Shown one piece after another: positions 17,878 through 62,725 of a stretch of 64,000 nt of DNA. The DNA is taken from positions 310,001 to 374,000 of the forward strand of contig NZ_PVTE01000003.1 of assembly GCF_003002825.1 (NCBI RefSeq), given 5' to 3'. The notes under the pieces are model-generated. The model saw nothing but the letters and a program-made list of their open reading frames with translations, made no database searches and was not told the origin of the DNA. The first letter of the stretch is position 1; each line of letters starts with the position of its first letter. Origin of the DNA: Spirosoma oryzae. GTDB lineage: Bacteria; Bacteroidota; Bacteroidia; Cytophagales; Spirosomataceae. The position numbers and the translations under genes were made by a program.

Positions 17878-20535
17878 TTATGTATGCCCGGTCGTCCCGG
17901 CATATTTCCGGTGAATGAGCCCCGCCACCAGCCCTGTCCAGCCAGTTTGGTGACTGGCACCTACCCCACGCCCGTTGTCGCCGTCGAAATACTCGTAGAA
18001 CAGTACATGATCGCAGAAGTTGGGGTCCTGATTTTTAGCGTACTGCTTCAGCACGGCCCGCTGCCCGTTGGCGTCGCGTGTAAACAGTGAGATAAGTCGG
18101 TTTGCGATTTCGTCGGCAGCCGTGCGCAAACTGATCTGCTTGCCCGACCCGACCGGGTATTCGACCGTAAAGCCGTCGCCGAAGTAGTGGTAAAACGTAT
18201 CCAGGCTTAGCACCATCAGGTAATTGGTCGGCATCCAGACGGGGCCGCGCCAGTTGCTGTTCCCGCCAAACAGGTCGCTGTTGCTCTCGGCGGGCGCGTA
18301 GTCAAGGCGGAAGGTGGTTCCATCGAGCGTGAAGGTGTATGGATTATCGCGGTACGCCTGCGACACCGCCCGAACGCCGTGTGGACTAAGAAATTCCTTC
18401 TCGTCCAGCATCCAGCGGAGCAGCGACTTCAACCGAAAACCGCGCAGCAGGCTCAGCAGGCGGGTTTCGTCGGCCCCCTTCTCCGTATACCGTGACACCT
18501 GATTGTAGAGGTCGGGGCGGTGACTGCGGAACCATTCCATCCGGGCCAGAAACGACGGGTTCTGCCGCAACAGATCATCATCCAGCACGTCGACGGCGAA
18601 CAGCGGAATCAGCCCGACCAGCGTTCGGACTTGCATCTTCTCGACGCTTCCGTCCGACATGCGCAGTTGATCGTAGAAGAAGCGGTCCTGCTCATCCCAC
18701 AGGCCTACGCCATCCTGTCCGATATGGGTCATGGCGCTGGCGATGTAGAGAAAATGGTCGAAGAATTTGGTAGCCATCTCGCCGTACACATCGTCGTGGC
18801 GGGCCAGTTCGAGGGCGATCCGCATCATGTTCAGCGCGTACATCGCCATCCAGCTCGTTCCATCGGCCTGTTCCAGATGGCTCCCGTTAGGCAATACGGC
18901 ATTGCGGTCAAACACACCGATGTTGTCCAGTCCCAAAAAGCCGCCTTCGAAAATGTTGTTGCCCATTTCGTCTTTACGGTTCACCCACCAGGTGAAGTTG
19001 AGCATCAGCTTGTGAAAGATGGCACGGAGGAAGCCATGATCGGCTTCGCCGGTTGGGTGCACCTCGCGGCACAGCATAAAGACGTGCAAAGCCGCCCACG
19101 CCTGTACGGGCGGATTGACGTCGGAGAAATTCCACTCATAGGCGGGGAGCTGCCCGTTGGGATGCATGTACCATTCGTTGGTCAGCAGCATCAGTTGCTG
19201 TTTCGCCAACTCCGGATCGATCAGCGCCAGTGTCACGCAGTGAAACGACCAGTCCCAGGCGGCATACCAGGGGTACTCCCACTTGTCGGGCATGGAAATC
19301 ACCCCCGCGTTGATCAGTTGCAGCCAGGTATGGTTGCGCCCGTACTTCCGCTCCGGTGGTGGTGGGGGTTGCGTTGGATCGCCGGCCAGCCAGCGCGATA
19401 CGTCGTAATAGTAGAACTGTTTGCTCCAGAGCATCCCAGCAAAAGCCTGTCGCTGTACGTGCTTCTCGTCGTCGGTTGCGTTGGCGGGTTGCACAGCTGC
19501 GTAGAACAGATCAGCTTCTTTTTTTCGCTGGGCGACCAGGCCATCGAAGTCCCGAAAAGGTTCCGGCACCAGTGTGTGTACGTCGGTCGTCAGCGCGAGT
19601 CGCAACCGGACAACGGCCTGTCTACCAGCCTCGACTGTCAGTTGATAGCGGGCTGCCGCCTTTGTTCCCGTTTGTTCAGGATTAACCGTACCGGCTCCGT
19701 GAACGACATGGTCGTTGATGCCATCTTTAGGGTATGGTGTCCCATCGTGTGCGTTGTACAGCCGCGCCCGGTTCGACTCGTTTTCGCAGAACAACCAGTC
19801 AGGCTGTCCGTCGGCGTAGAGTGCGTAGTTGCCCAGTTGCTGATGCGTTGCCCGTAAAAAACCGTCCTGCCGCAGGCTAATCGTGGGGCGCTGACTCGTC
19901 ACTCCATCGGAATCGTCGCCCCAGCGCCAGGTATTACGAAACCAGAGTGTTGGCAGCACGGTCAGGCTGGCACGCTCCGGTCCCCGGTTATGCACCGTCA
20001 CGGTCATCAGTACATCCTGGGGCCCCGCTTTGGCGTACTCGACAAACACGTCGAAGTAACGATCCTCATCGAACAGACCCGTGTCGAGTAGTTCATACTC
20101 CGGTTCCAGGCGCGTACGCCGACGGTTTTCGGCTAGCAGTTGCTCGTAGGGGTAAGCCGCCTGCGGGTATTTGTACAGCATTCGCTGGTACGAATGCGTG
20201 GGGGTATTGTCGAGGTAATAGTATAACTCCTTGACGTCCTCGCCGTGGTTACCCTCGCCATTGGTCAGGCCGAAATAGCGTTCTTTCAGAATCGGGTCCT
20301 GCCCGTTCCAGAGCGCCAGTCCCAGACACAGTGTCTGATGATCGTCGCAGAAACCCGCGATGCCATCTTCGCCCCAACGGTAAGTATAGCTACGGGCCAT
20401 ATCGTGCGTGGTGAACCCCCAGGCGTCACCATTGGCGCTATAGTCTTCACGAACGGTTCCCCACTGCCGGTCCGACACGTAGGGGCCCCACTGCCGCCAC
20501 GCCGGATCGTCAAGCCGTTTTTGTTCAATAGTCAT
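17878..20535 (-). CDS. GH63-like (MGH1-type) glycoside hydrolase
   Basis: An 885-residue protein without a visible signal peptide, so likely cytoplasmic. It reads through WGPYVSDRQWGTVREDYS and GDAWGFTTHDMARSYTYRWGEDG near the start, and the (alpha/alpha)6-barrel part has NHTWLQLINAG, WEYPWYAAWDWSFH and GGNSNWRGPVWMPTNYL. These are the marks of GH63-related glucosidase/MGH1-type hydrolases, including glucosyl- or mannosylglycerate hydrolases. Candidate catalytic acids lie in AWDWSFH and in the C-terminal EYFDGDNGRG segment. The substrate is uncertain. The neighbouring SDR is annotated like glucose 1-dehydrogenases, which would fit oxidation of a released glucose, but that is inference. Confidence 0.8.
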   Translation of the reverse strand: MTIEQKRLDDPAWRQWGPYVSDRQWGTVREDYSANGDAWGFTTHDMARSYTYRWGEDGIAGFCDDHQTLCLGLALWNGQDPILKERYFGLTNGEGNHGEDVKELYYYLDNTPTHSYQRMLYKYPQAAYPYEQLLAENRRRTRLEPEYELLDTGLFDEDRYFDVFVEYAKAGPQDVLMTVTVHNRGPERASLTVLPTLWFRNTWRWGDDSDGVTSQRPTISLRQDGFLRATHQQLGNYALYADGQPDWLFCENESNRARLYNAHDGTPYPKDGINDHVVHGAGTVNPEQTGTKAAARYQLTVEAGRQAVVRLRLALTTDVHTLVPEPFRDFDGLVAQRKKEADLFYAAVQPANATDDEKHVQRQAFAGMLWSKQFYYYDVSRWLAGDPTQPPPPPERKYGRNHTWLQLINAGVISMPDKWEYPWYAAWDWSFHCVTLALIDPELAKQQLMLLTNEWYMHPNGQLPAYEWNFSDVNPPVQAWAALHVFMLCREVHPTGEADHGFLRAIFHKLMLNFTWWVNRKDEMGNNIFEGGFLGLDNIGVFDRNAVLPNGSHLEQADGTSWMAMYALNMMRIALELARHDDVYGEMATKFFDHFLYIASAMTHIGQDGVGLWDEQDRFFYDQLRMSDGSVEKMQVRTLVGLIPLFAVDVLDDDLLRQNPSFLARMEWFRSHRPDLYNQVSRYTEKGADETRLLSLLRGFRLKSLLRWMLDEKEFLSPHGVRAVSQAYRDNPYTFTLDGTTFRLDYAPAESNSDLFGGNSNWRGPVWMPTNYLMVLSLDTFYHYFGDGFTVEYPVGSGKQISLRTAADEIANRLISLFTRDANGQRAVLKQYAKNQDPNFCDHVLFYEYFDGDNGRGVGASHQTGWTGLVAGLIHRKYAGTTGHT

Positions 20536-20536
20536 G

Positions 20537-20630
20537 CGGTAAACCGTTTACGGTACACAGTATCCGGTTTACCGTAGATAGCCTGCGCCAGCCACCGTAA
20601 ACCGAATACTGTATACCGTAAACCACTAGT
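20537..20630. repeat. TTTACGG-type intergenic inverted repeat, copy 3
   Basis: The left arm (about 20537-20572) contains GGTAAACCGTTTACGGTACA and the right arm (about 20597-20626) contains ACCGTAAACCGAATACTGTA. It fills the gap between the SDR and GH63-like genes, both on the minus strand. Confidence 0.75.
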
Positions 20631-27218: not shown

Positions 27219-27769
27219 GGTCAGCCTGCGTTACCGGTCAATTACGGTACATGGTATGAATTCCCAAACACGCATCGAAACGCTGACGTGTTTGGGGATT
27301 CGCCATTTTACAAAGGTATATTTCTGCAAGCTACGCTTTCGATTAACCTGTTATCCCAAGCGAAGAAATAAGCACCGGTCGACAGTTTTAACCATACTAC
27401 CCGCCCTCTGAATGGCAGGGCTGTTAAGTTCTTGATTTGATACTATCAGAAGCCAAATTCCCTTCGGTTCATCTACCCCCCAGCCCCCTGAAGGGGGAGC
27501 GTTCCGCGAAGAAATTTCTCCCCCTTTAGGGGGCTGGGGGGTAAACAGGCTAGAACTTAACTGCCCTGAAGGGGGAGAAATTAGCACACAAACTTCTCCC
27601 CCTTCAGGGGGCGGGGGGTAAATGGGACAGAACTTAACAGTCCTTGGCCAACATCGTACAAGTAGACGGAGCAACGGGTCGAACTTATGGTTGTCGTGTC
27701 GGCTTCCGATCACGCGCAGGCCTGTACACAGACAGCCTGCTGCTATCAACGTTATTTTCGCTACCCGTA
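27219..27769. other. Intergenic stretch with a MITE-like block
   Basis: About 550 bases with no supported gene. It contains a 220-bp inverted-repeat block (27421-27640) listed separately and the region just before the GH2 gene. The open frame extending from 27644 is not believed, because it starts in repeat-edge sequence and the signal peptide starts at 27770. Confidence 0.6.
27421..27640. repeat. MITE-like 220-bp block with 12-bp terminal inverted repeats
   Basis: CTGTTAAGTTCT (27421-27432) and AGAACTTAACAG (27629-27640) are perfect inverted complements. Between them lie nested G/C palindromes: ACCCCCCAGCCCCCT (27475-27489) with AGGGGGCTGGGGGGT (27528-27542), and a second CTGAAGGGGGAG...CTCCCCCTTCAG pair near 27566-27606. 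An internal TAGAACTTAACTG near 27551 repeats the terminal motif. No transposase gene is present. CCCCCT/AGGGGG-based palindromes of this kind are often dispersed in Bacteroidota genomes. Confidence 0.65.
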
Positions 27770-29608
27770 ATGATTCGACGTCTCCGCCTTGATTTTCTTA
27801 CTCAGCAGCTACTCTTTCTGATCGTACTGGTGTCACCGGTTAAAAAGGGCTGTGCCCAACGCGCTGCCTTGCCAACCCGCTGGACCAAAGAAGCCCTGAC
27901 GGCCCCTGTTCCGTTGAATGAGTACCCACGCCCGCAACTGCGTCGGCAGCAGTGGTTATGCCTGAATGGGCTGTGGAACTATCAGGGTGGCCCAACGATA
28001 GCTTCCGCCAGGCAGCCGACGCAGGCAGTGCCCTTCCCCGCAACCGCTGAGCGTATCCGTGTTCCCTACTGCCCGGAGTCGGTGCTGTCCGGCATTCAGC
28101 GCAAGCAGGAAATCAACATGTGGTACCAACGCACTTTTACGCTCCCACAGGACTGGCGGGGCAAGCATGTCTTATTGCACTTCGAAGCCGTCGACTACCA
28201 GTCGACGGTCTTTGTCAACGGGCAGAAAGTGGGAAGCCATGCCGGTGGGTATGATCCGTTTAGTTTCGACATCACAGCCGCGCTAAAACTCGGCGCGAAT
28301 AGTCTGATCGTAGCTGCCTACGACGCCAACGACGGGCGAACCCCATCGGGCAAAAACGGCCCGCGCGGGGACTACACCTTCACGTCCGGCATCTGGCAAT
28401 CCGTCTGGCTGGAACCGGTCAGCGAGCAGCATATCAACGGCATCCGGCTACTGCCTGATCTGGCTGGGAAGCGACTCCGCATCGATGTCGATGCAACCAC
28501 AGCGACTCCGGTGCAGGTAGCGGTTTTTGCCGACAAGAAACTGGTGACCCGCGCGCAGGGGCAGGCCGGCACGGCGTTCTACATCCCGATCGCCAACCCG
28601 AAAGCCTGGTCACCGGATTCGCCGTTCCTCTATGATCTGACCATTTCGCTGCAATCCGCCGACGGTCAACCCGTCGATCAGGTAAGCAGCTACGTTGGGA
28701 TGCGGGACGTCAGCCTGGGCAAAGTCGACGGCGTGGTCCGGCCACTGCTGAACGGCAAATTTGTGATGCAACTGGGCTTGCTCGATCAGGGCTACTGGCC
28801 CGATGGTATCCTGACGGCACCCACCGAAGCGGCCCTGAAATCGGATATGGAGTTCACCAAAAAGGCGGGCTATAACCTGATTCGCAAGCACATGAAAACC
28901 GAACCCCAGCGGTTTTACTACTGGGCCGACAAGTTGGGCCTGCTGGTATGGCAGGACATGCCGGCGCTCTGGTACCCCGACGAAGACACGCTGGTCAACC
29001 GGGGAGCCTTCCGGCGCGAACTCAAAACACTAATCGACACTCATTATAACTCACCTTCGATTATCGCCTGGGTGCCGTTCAACGAAAACTGGGGTGCTTT
29101 CGACGTGCGTACCATTACCAACTGGGTCAAACAGTATGACCCCTCCCGACTCGTGAACGGTAACTCGGGCTTCAACAATAACCCTTCCTACCAGACCGCT
29201 TACGGCGACCCTAAAAACGGTGATTTTGTCGATACGCACATTTACGTCGGTCCCAACAAAGCCTCGGTGCCGGACAGCCTGCGAGCCGCTTCGCTGGGCG
29301 AATTCGGGGGCGTTGGCTTATTCGTGCGGGGGCATATGTGGCCCGTTGAGAACAACGCCTATGCCTACGAGCCAACGCAGTCGGCCCTGACGGATCGCTA
29401 CGTTTTCTTACTGGATCAGGTCGAGCAATTAATGCGCTACCGGGGGCTTAGCGTGGCGATTTACACCCAGACGACGGATGTAGAGCACGAGGTCAACGGG
29501 CTGCTAACGTACGACCGGGCGGTAGAGAAGATGAACGTAAACCGGGTTCGTCAGGTCAACCAGGCCGTCATCAACGCTGGTCGTCAGCTAAACCCGCCAG
29601 CAAAGTAA
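27770..29608 (+). CDS. Glycoside hydrolase family 2 enzyme
   Basis: A 612-residue GH2-type protein with a signal peptide (MIRRLRLDFLTQQLLFLIVL, ending near GCAQ, residue 30), so exported. It has a jelly-roll sugar-binding domain (about 60-210, LNGLWNYQG and GGYDPFSFDIT), an immunoglobulin-like domain and a TIM barrel. The barrel has RKHMKTEP and the acid/base WVPFNENWG, followed by a likely nucleophile in LGEFGG. GH2 enzymes act on beta-galactosides, beta-mannosides or beta-glucuronides; which one applies is not decidable. The ATG at 27770 is chosen for the signal peptide. It stands between two palindromic blocks and lies on the plus strand. Confidence 0.85.
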   Translation: MIRRLRLDFLTQQLLFLIVLVSPVKKGCAQRAALPTRWTKEALTAPVPLNEYPRPQLRRQQWLCLNGLWNYQGGPTIASARQPTQAVPFPATAERIRVPYCPESVLSGIQRKQEINMWYQRTFTLPQDWRGKHVLLHFEAVDYQSTVFVNGQKVGSHAGGYDPFSFDITAALKLGANSLIVAAYDANDGRTPSGKNGPRGDYTFTSGIWQSVWLEPVSEQHINGIRLLPDLAGKRLRIDVDATTATPVQVAVFADKKLVTRAQGQAGTAFYIPIANPKAWSPDSPFLYDLTISLQSADGQPVDQVSSYVGMRDVSLGKVDGVVRPLLNGKFVMQLGLLDQGYWPDGILTAPTEAALKSDMEFTKKAGYNLIRKHMKTEPQRFYYWADKLGLLVWQDMPALWYPDEDTLVNRGAFRRELKTLIDTHYNSPSIIAWVPFNENWGAFDVRTITNWVKQYDPSRLVNGNSGFNNNPSYQTAYGDPKNGDFVDTHIYVGPNKASVPDSLRAASLGEFGGVGLFVRGHMWPVENNAYAYEPTQSALTDRYVFLLDQVEQLMRYRGLSVAIYTQTTDVEHEVNGLLTYDRAVEKMNVNRVRQVNQAVINAGRQLNPPAK

Positions 29609-29752
29609 ACCGCCGGTGCCCAGCATCATTCGTCGTAAACAGAACGCACGGTTTATGACTTAGGTAGTCAGGTACATCCATTCGGTAAGCCCAGCGAATG
29701 CAGGACTCTTGTCGGAATTTTGCGTAGATGAGTCCGCGATGCTATTTGCAGA

Positions 29753-29834
29753 CTCTGTCACCCCTAAATCCCCTAAAGGGGACTTTATCTACGTGCGAGT
29801 AAAGTCCCCTTTAGGGGATTTAGGGGTGACAGAG
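29753..29834. repeat. Long perfect palindrome (35-base arms)
   Basis: The arms 29753-29787 and 29800-29834 are exact reverse complements around a 12-base loop (TCTACGTGCGAG). The outer arm begins CTCTGTCACCCCTAAATCCC. It lies 145 bases after the GH2 gene and 65 bases before the PRISE gene. Given its length and perfection, it would form an extremely stable RNA hairpin or DNA cruciform. Confidence 0.9.
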
Positions 29835-29899
29835 CTTAGTTAACCCGCACCAATTAAAATACTATAAGAGTAGACGAACTCAACGTATCCGTTCAAATC

Positions 29900-30967
29900 A
29901 TGCAGAAAAAAGCACTTGTCGTTGGGGTCAGCGGCATCACGGGCGGTAATCTGGCCGAAACACTACTTGCCCACGATTGGACAGTATACGGGCTGGCCCG
30001 TACGCCCGGCACCGGTCCGGACGGACTCATTCCCGTTGCCGCCGATTTATTAAACTTGGATAGTCTGAACACGGCTCTGGCTGCGGTTAGCCCTACCCAT
30101 GTGTTTATCACCAGTTGGATGCGCAACGATACCGAAGCGGAGAACATTCGGGTCAACAGCCTGATGGTCCGTAATCTGTTGACGGCTGTTTCACCGAAGA
30201 AAACCGTGCAGCATGTGGCGCTGGTCACCGGCCTGAAGCACTACCTGGGGCCGTTCGAGGCTTACGCAAAGGCGGGTACGCTGCCCCTGACACCTGTCCG
30301 GGAAGAGCATCCCCGGCTGACCATCGAAAACTTTTACTACGCACAGGAAGACGAGGTCTATGCGGCTGCCGAACGCGACGGTTTCACCTGGAGCATTCAT
30401 CGGCCGCATACGGTCATCGGCAAAGCGGTAGGTAACATGATGAACATGGGCACGACCCTGGCGGTCTACGCGTCGATCTGCAAGGAAACCGGACGGTCGT
30501 TTCAGTTTCCCGGTTCGGCCGCGCAGTGGAATGGAATTTCGGACGTGACCGACGCTCGGCTTCTGGCCCAGCACATGCTGTGGGCGGCTACGACGGAAGC
30601 AGCTCACAATCAGGCTTTCAATGTGGCCAACGGCGACGTGTTCCGCTGGAACTGGCTCTGGCTGCAACTGGCCAACTGGTTCGGTATCGAAGCCAGGGGG
30701 TTCGACGGGGCCATTCGCCCGCTGGAAGCCGAGCTGGCGCACGACGGTGCGTTGTGGGCAGCCATAGCCGCCAAATACGGATTGACCGAACCGGACCTGA
30801 ACCGACTGGCGTCGGCCTGGCACACCGATCTGGATTTAAGCCGCCCCATCGAAGTCATGACGGATATGGCGAAAAGCCGCAAGCTGGGCTTTACCGGCTA
30901 CCAGGACACGCGCGACTCGTTTGTCGACCTGTTTACCCGGCTTCGGGCGGAGCGCTTGATTCCGTAA
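29900..30967 (+). CDS. PRISE-type SDR reductase (progesterone 5-beta-reductase/iridoid synthase-like)
   Basis: A 355-residue atypical short-chain dehydrogenase. The nucleotide motif is VVGVSGITGGNL near residues 7-18; other family marks are LVTGLKHYLGPFEAY and the NFYYAQED segment in place of the usual YxxxK, typical of the PRISE family (NFYYxxED). The C-terminal half has GDVFRWNWLW and the family-typical FGI. These enzymes reduce activated C=C bonds of enones with NADPH; the native substrate in bacteria is unknown. The gene follows a long palindrome and appears alone. Confidence 0.85.
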   Translation: MQKKALVVGVSGITGGNLAETLLAHDWTVYGLARTPGTGPDGLIPVAADLLNLDSLNTALAAVSPTHVFITSWMRNDTEAENIRVNSLMVRNLLTAVSPKKTVQHVALVTGLKHYLGPFEAYAKAGTLPLTPVREEHPRLTIENFYYAQEDEVYAAAERDGFTWSIHRPHTVIGKAVGNMMNMGTTLAVYASICKETGRSFQFPGSAAQWNGISDVTDARLLAQHMLWAATTEAAHNQAFNVANGDVFRWNWLWLQLANWFGIEARGFDGAIRPLEAELAHDGALWAAIAAKYGLTEPDLNRLASAWHTDLDLSRPIEVMTDMAKSRKLGFTGYQDTRDSFVDLFTRLRAERLIP

Positions 30968-38361: not shown

Positions 38362-38430
38362 AGCATGGTTGATGACTTGTAGTGGTGTCAGGTCCCCGAC
38401 CTGACACCACTACAAGTCATCAACCATGCT
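38362..38430. repeat. Long perfect palindrome (32-base arms) plus shorter second copy
   Basis: Arms 38362-38393 and 38399-38430 are exact complements around CCCCG. The inner part TGTCAGGT / ACCTGACA recurs at 38443-38465 with the same loop, as a shorter copy. The element starts 6 bases after the SusD stop and precedes the DUF3472 gene. It probably acts as a terminator or RNA stabiliser. Confidence 0.9.
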
Positions 38431-38575
38431 TCGCCCGGAAACGTGTCAGGTCCCCGACCTGACACCACTGCACACTAAATTAAATCACTTCGTGCAGGCG
38501 GGGAAGGTGTATGCGACATACTCGACCGCCCCTATCCGTCAACCAACTCACTCCTAAACGTTCGTTCACAATCCC

Positions 38576-61065: not shown

Positions 61066-61187
61066 GAAACGGGTTTTCGGTATACGATTTTCGGTACAGG
61101 GCTATCATTTTTCAGTACAGCAATACATGGAGACGGTTTATCGCTGCATTACCGTAAACTAAAAACCGAAAACCATATACCGAAACT
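61066..61187. repeat. TTTACGG-type intergenic inverted repeat, copy 5
   Basis: The left arm (about 61070-61098) has GGGTTTTCGGTATACGATTT and the right arm (about 61150-61187) has ACCGTAAACTAAAAACCGAA. The arms are more separated than in other copies. It lies between the M28 peptidase and the flavoprotein genes. Confidence 0.7.
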
Positions 61188-62632: not shown

Positions 62633-62725
62633 AAGTTTTCGGTTTACGGTTTACAGTATTTGGTTTACGGTTGGCCACCGTGTAACGGACCACCGTAAAC
62701 CGAATACTATAAACCGTAAACCCAC
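62633..62725. repeat. TTTACGG-type intergenic inverted repeat, copy 6
   Basis: The left arm (about 62636-62673) has TTTTCGGTTTACGGTTTACA and the right arm (about 62691-62721) has ACCGTAAACCGAATACTATA. It fills the gap between the carboxylase and flavoprotein genes on the minus strand. Confidence 0.75.

Follow-up and report, generated by a model that had tools for sequence, protein, structure and literature searches.

The described systems closest to the element reported here are REPINs and MITEs. REPINs are inverted pairs of a short palindromic unit around a spacer, intergenic and dispersed, occurring also as singlets and tandem arrays, and MITEs are small and gene-free, with terminal inverted repeats, a target duplication and a like-ended IS in the same genome. 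Among the REPs, short palindromic repeats lying downstream of genes and tagged with GTAG or CGTC, the CGTC-tagged group is described in the available part of PMC3733652 as having no dedicated transposase and as occurring in Bacteroidetes among other phyla. It is also known that some IS elements, among them ISPsy8, ISPpu9/10 and ISRm22, always insert at one point within REPs (available part of PMC1525189). For template switching between inverted repeats, the available sections of PMC8604942 and PMC8794818 report arm homogenisation and spacer inversion as the products.

The window, a stretch of 64,000 nucleotides of Spirosoma oryzae DNA, contains at 29753-29834 a palindrome whose arms (29753-29787 and 29800-29834) pair at 35/35 nucleotides, or 100% complementarity, around a 12-nt loop. 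The first-pass annotation had described an exact palindrome with 35-base arms and a 12-base loop between genes, and both the pairing and the intergenic position hold. It is the longest perfect inverted repeat among those listed for the window, and it is not due to chance, because its computed folding energy as single-stranded DNA is -41.2 kcal/mol, whereas shuffled sequences average -8.74 (z = -16.2). A second perfect palindrome with 33-bp arms and a 3-nt loop is found at 38362-38430, followed by a further copy of GTGTCAGGTCCCCGACCTGACACCACT (stretch 38362-38472). The named relatives of the neighbouring gene belong to Spirosomataceae, the closest being a MAG with 93% protein identity. From sequence comparison, the palindrome is read as the central part of a MITE-like insertion of 171 bp, which belongs to a REPIN-like family and is new in detail, with the following features:

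27644 to 29608, plus strand: upstream gene for a protein of glycosyl hydrolase family 2, its start codon being uncertain
29694 to 29702, no strand: 9-bp target duplication, left copy, GCGAATGCA; the empty site of the closest relative (L078) has one copy, with the same letters
29703 to 29873, no strand: MITE-like element, 171 bp, absent from L078
29703 to 29722, plus strand: left terminal inverted repeat, decayed, GGACTCTTGTCGGAATTTTG, matching the family end CTACTCTTGTAGGGGTTTTG
29753 to 29787, plus strand: left palindrome arm, 35 bp, from the inverted-repeat listing of the window
29770 to 29781, plus strand: inner palindrome CCCCTAAAGGGG, empty here, a site type occupied by IS/MITE ends elsewhere in the genome
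29788 to 29799, no strand: spacer (loop), 12 nt, inverted between orthologous copies elsewhere
29800 to 29834, minus strand: right arm of the palindrome, 35 bp, fully complementary to the left arm, from the same listing
29806 to 29817, minus strand: second inner palindrome CCCCTAAAGGGG, also empty
29854 to 29873, minus strand: right terminal inverted repeat, decayed, CTACTCTTATAGTATTTTAA on the minus strand
29874 to 29882, no strand: right copy of the target duplication, ACGAACTCA, 6/9 identical to the left copy
29900 to 30967, plus strand: downstream gene, PRISE-like / NAD-dependent epimerase family protein

A comparison between strains, which the first-pass annotation had proposed for expansion or loss, could be made with one relative. 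In L078, the same stretch in genome G162, the flanking genes share about 88% DNA identity with those of the window and the element is missing: from GCGAATGCA to the next start codon there are 206 bases in the window versus 26 in L078, a difference of exactly 180, that is, 171 + 9. With this one relative compared, insertion here as opposed to a precise loss in the relative is not certain. G162 is a fragmented MAG with just two core places, and neither has flanks matching those of our genome, so no orthologous filled copy is available there for comparison. The ends of the focal element have decayed. CTTGTCGGAATTTTG is matched by the left terminal repeat with 3 mismatches, the two terminal repeats agree at 12/18 positions (counted by eye), and the target duplication, at just 6/9, weighs against the reading as a MITE-like insertion. 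Better-preserved copies (L017/L060, L003 and L235) carry the family end CTACTCTTGTAGGGGTTTTG; terminal inverted repeats are clean in these and in L025, and the target duplication, by eye, is 8/9 in L017, 10/10 in L235 and 9 in L025. The sister copy L017/L060 reads CTACTCTTGTAGGGGTTT...AAGAGTAG between GTTGAGAGA and GTTGAGAGG, and L235, from another genome, reads CTAATCTTG...CATTAG between CCCTTGAACT repeats. The 171 bp contain no ORF of at least 80 aa, and the element has the terminal inverted repeats, the target site duplication and the lack of an internal transposase gene of MITEs. Unlike in MITEs, the central palindrome is far more widely conserved than the terminal repeats and is also found without them.

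The genome-wide search for the arm sequence that the first-pass annotation had suggested found the core dispersed. A search of the genome (6.57 Mb, 75 contigs) with the 82-bp palindrome as query yielded 118 matches at E up to 10, both strands included. At E up to 1e-3, and after merging within 300 bp, the matches make at least 35 distinct core places, of which 14 carry the full doublet; the figure of 35 is a lower bound from 40 scored places among 49 first-look candidates. The repeat unit consists of CCCCTAAATCCCCTRAAGGGGACTT, a spacer and the reverse complement of CCCCTAAATCCCCTRAAGGGGACTT, and single half-units are also present. The core was matched in 35/150 genomes of the family Spirosomataceae, a count that includes 10/17 other genomes of the genus, and at four places in a Spirosoma plasmid record. 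In another genome (G104:C9, locus L358), half-palindromes about 106 bp apart suggest a tandem array. No description of this repeat was found in the literature searched, a search that most subscription papers fall outside. A Y/R pattern in the loops, first thought odd, proved to be an artefact of pooling both orientations of a symmetric element. Other palindromic repeats are also found in the window, including imperfect inverted repeats of GTTTACGGT/GTATACCG-like units (604-682, 2807-2873, 20534-20623, 61072-61185 and 62641-62722) and, at 27420-27650, two nested copies of a different palindromic element with core TACCCCCCAGCCCCCTRAAGGGGGAG and ends GGGCTGTTAAGTTCT, one copy apparently inserted in the CCCCTGAAGGGG of the other.

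Here it is proposed, at a probability of roughly 70%, that the element is a non-autonomous MITE-like insertion of an inverted-doublet family, whose ends have decayed and whose arms are kept by template switching. It would have arrived by transposition with a 9-bp target duplication, moved most likely in trans by an IS with the same terminal repeats, and its ends and target duplication would have decayed after insertion. Replication would occasionally switch template between the arms, so that one arm is copied from the other; such copying could repair changes or spread them to both arms, and some of these events would flip the spacer.

Changes in the arms were examined in 77 copies with distinct flanks from this and other genomes (88 cores, 78 past a stricter cut, 77 kept), with 2000 shuffles of the right arms. 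There were 24 paired changes, 72 one-arm changes and 1 position different in both arms; the 24 paired changes compare with a shuffle mean of 6.2 and a maximum of 13 in 2000, statistics that ignore kinship, related copies being non-independent and the shuffles carrying no correction for relatedness. A single G/A column holds 17/24 of the paired changes, and outside it 7 are paired versus 64 in one arm. The copies are best BLAST hits and hence skewed toward the consensus. Beyond the 25-bp units, at least 6 further complementary bases, specific to the copy, extend the arms in 10/77 copies (shuffle mean 0.5, maximum 4). Copying between the arms, or conversion in a wide sense, is the best-supported account of how they are kept alike as judged from these alignments, and such homogenisation seems to act but to be partial, far from complete, because one-arm changes, which speak against it, are commoner than paired ones and the arms are perfect over 25 bp in 42/77 copies. 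At L331 (G096), a site orthologous to L336, CCCCGACGGGG stands in place of the inner CCCTAAAGGG, and the opposite arm shows a change that nearly matches.

The 88 cores were also searched for locus pairs in which both flanks are alike. Six orthologous pairs have alignable spacers, three of them inverted (L183/L185, L188/L196 and L326/L335, with inverted scores of 7, 10 and 9 versus direct scores of -1.5, 1 and -3.5) and three direct (L270/L336, L331/L336 and L245/L248). Flanks of the inverted-spacer pairs are 93-97% identical, and the spacer orientation scores were reached by at most 4 of 5000 shuffles. Four pairs were left out unscored (L183/L193, L185/L193, L189/L249 and L003/L012), two had loops that could not be aligned (L188/L198 and L196/L198), and same-locus or repeated rows were dropped (L185/L185, L256/L256 and the second rows of L183/L185 and L185/L193). 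Within our own genome, the spacer of L003 is exactly reversed relative to seven sibling copies, L020-L026, with the same left and right flanks. The family therefore combines paired changes with spacer inversion between relatives, and it resembles the template-switch cases in the available sections of PMC8604942 and PMC8794818 in that the arms are made alike and the spacer is inverted between relatives with perfect arms. It differs from them in that those cases, as far as these sections go, concern yeast coding genes and RNA genes, whereas here the repeats are dispersed in bacteria, and in that the loop inversions given there are mostly 2-8 nt, versus spacers of 11-16 nt here. Recombination between the arms is a possible alternative, which would give the same spacer inversion. 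We infer that the likeness of the arms is due to template switching, and neither to arm-to-arm recombination nor to selection on an RNA hairpin.

A host-useful RNA hairpin, acting as a bidirectional transcription end or as a 3' stabiliser of mRNA, would keep the arms complementary through selection on pairing, and we consider this unlikely. Its appeal comes from placement, which was scored by simple ORF calling for 41 copies whose loci are longer than 2 kb. Among the 38 copies with both neighbours called, 12 lie between convergent and 26 between co-directional genes, and none (0/38) between divergent genes (the other 3/41 comprise 1 called inside an ORF and 2 without a neighbour); for 19/26 of the co-directional copies, the stop upstream is nearer than the start downstream (p 0.014). 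The absence of divergent placement fits either a 3' hairpin role or the loss of copies that hit promoters, and the same placement would result if promoter-region insertions simply get lost. The predicted RNA fold of the element is very stable (-87.8 kcal/mol), but no T-run follows the full stem on either strand, and the search for a G+C-rich stem with a T run gave as its sole terminator-like match a small inner hairpin at 29769-29782. For the focal copy itself the order is the opposite, with 66 bp to the downstream start and 144 bp to the upstream stop, and selection on pairing does not call for spacer inversion or for copy-specific arm extension. Sub-threshold Rfam matches to microRNA precursors on both strands (best 57.6 bits versus a gathering score of 94) were rejected, because any long perfect hairpin yields such matches.

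It is quite improbable that a RAYT tyrosine transposase mobilises the repeat as a REPIN/REP element and, by needing the hairpin, keeps it. The architecture agrees with this reading: a short palindromic unit paired in inverted orientation around a variable spacer, dispersed in many intergenic copies, with single half-units (including the array in G104:C9) and a placement behind genes that is typical of REPs. However, the core was absent from all loci with a Y1 transposase (0/30 loci in 13 genomes, searched over about 1.5 kb to either side and allowing as many as 5 mismatches in each 25-nt half), and two repeat-rich genomes, G140 and G098, have no Y1_Tnp match; because of these results the repeat does not appear to behave as a RAYT-linked REPIN. 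The only Y1-transposase gene of our own genome (L009 960-2050, contig C40) is flanked by a different palindrome, of TAGCCCAGACGTCCACGTCTGGTAGCC form, and the two may be a separate REP/RAYT pair. By eye, the core copies show neither a GTAG nor a CGTC tag as a conserved end, which would set them apart from both tagged groups as described in the available part of PMC3733652, although the lack of a dedicated transposase is shared with the CGTC group. Other differences from REPINs are the longer, near-perfect arms and the embedding of the doublet in a larger unit with terminal repeats and target duplication, the focal inserted unit being 171 bp and not the doublet alone.

That the palindrome is simply young and has had no time yet to diverge is about as doubtful. 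It is missing from the closest relative compared, yet mismatched pairs number 0/35 in the arms versus 9/27 in the terminal repeats plus target duplication (counted by eye; Fisher one-sided p 2.3e-4), a contrast that would be weaker if the terminal repeats already differed at insertion. At the divergence of the adjoining spacer (13/97), the chance of 0/35 is 0.6%, and the focal copy has four differences from the genus query consensus, each present in both arms. The first-pass annotation had held the perfection to be recent, under selection or due to gene conversion. Its conversion part, taken in a wide sense, gains from the paired arm changes and the spacer inversions, and plain recency is not the best account, because the ends have decayed and the arms have not. 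Of the cruciform it had thought possible, with a block to replication or transcription, the analysis covers the folding energies of the strand. An assembly artefact is next to negligible: repeats of this type do break contigs in this assembly, but the palindrome lies deep in contig C3 (339753-339834 of 378364), the 171-bp element with its unique flanks is short enough for read-through, the same core occurs on further contigs and in further genomes, and relatives of the element are present in single-contig genomes.

As to what moves the element, we infer that an IS sharing its terminal repeats is the most likely source of transposase. In our genome, contigs break off within longer elements that have the end GGCTAATCTTGTAGGGGTTTT, and a search for the IS end pattern gave 11 matches, all at contig ends. 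Long element ends of two kinds, both carrying the terminal repeat of the focal element, are truncated where the contigs end, their interior and transposase being absent from the assembly; all 16/16 distinct ends lie in CCCTRAAGG-type palindromes only. For the related MITE, 22/23 ends are in a palindrome of this type, the L060/L017 copy being the one that is not. The PF01609 profile had five matches in our genome, none linked to the terminal-repeat ends of the element, and no transposase ORF was recognised by eye in the four similar-ended loci read in other genomes. Contigs C3, C5, C10, C20, C26, C27, C28, C32, C34, C39, C42, C43, C45, C48, C53 and C55 end about 88 bp within the same IS ends, and therefore this IS family causes much of the fragmentation of the assembly. 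The focal element carries two such palindromes, or pads, both empty. Elsewhere, core copies are interrupted at the pad by an element of another kind, whose end is (G)GGCTGTTAAGTTCT; this holds for 7/20 left-half rows, drawn from 22 loci with broken copies, and two of the 7 were counted by eye among rows scripted as 'other'. IS copies that always lie at one point in a palindromic repeat resemble ISPsy8, ISPpu9/10 and ISRm22, and the difference from these REP-targeting IS, as presented in the available part of PMC1525189, is that here a non-autonomous relative with the same ends bears two target palindromes; a non-autonomous member carrying two pads in itself is new here. A tentative extension, which we regard as possible but rather less than even, is that the pads are self-propagating: the IS/MITE group would insert only in the CCCCTRAAGGGG palindrome, its non-autonomous members would carry two each, and an element with ends CAGGGCTGTTAAGTTCT would nest mutually with them.

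These observations add a REPIN-like repeat family without a tie to the usual transposase, and they make template switching in bacteria countable in nature, as dozens of near-identical palindromes at orthologous sites allow spacer orientation and arm pairing to be scored between strains. They also show dispersed palindromes serving as sites set aside for the insertion of IS elements, which bring the same site along. If the pads do propagate themselves, every insertion would destroy one target and bring two, and two kinds of element, the focal one and the CAGGGCTGTTAAGTTCT-ended one, would occupy each other's pads behind genes. Template switching between the arms would then keep the pads palindromic and usable, and the palindrome would be maintained by mobile elements for themselves and not by the host.
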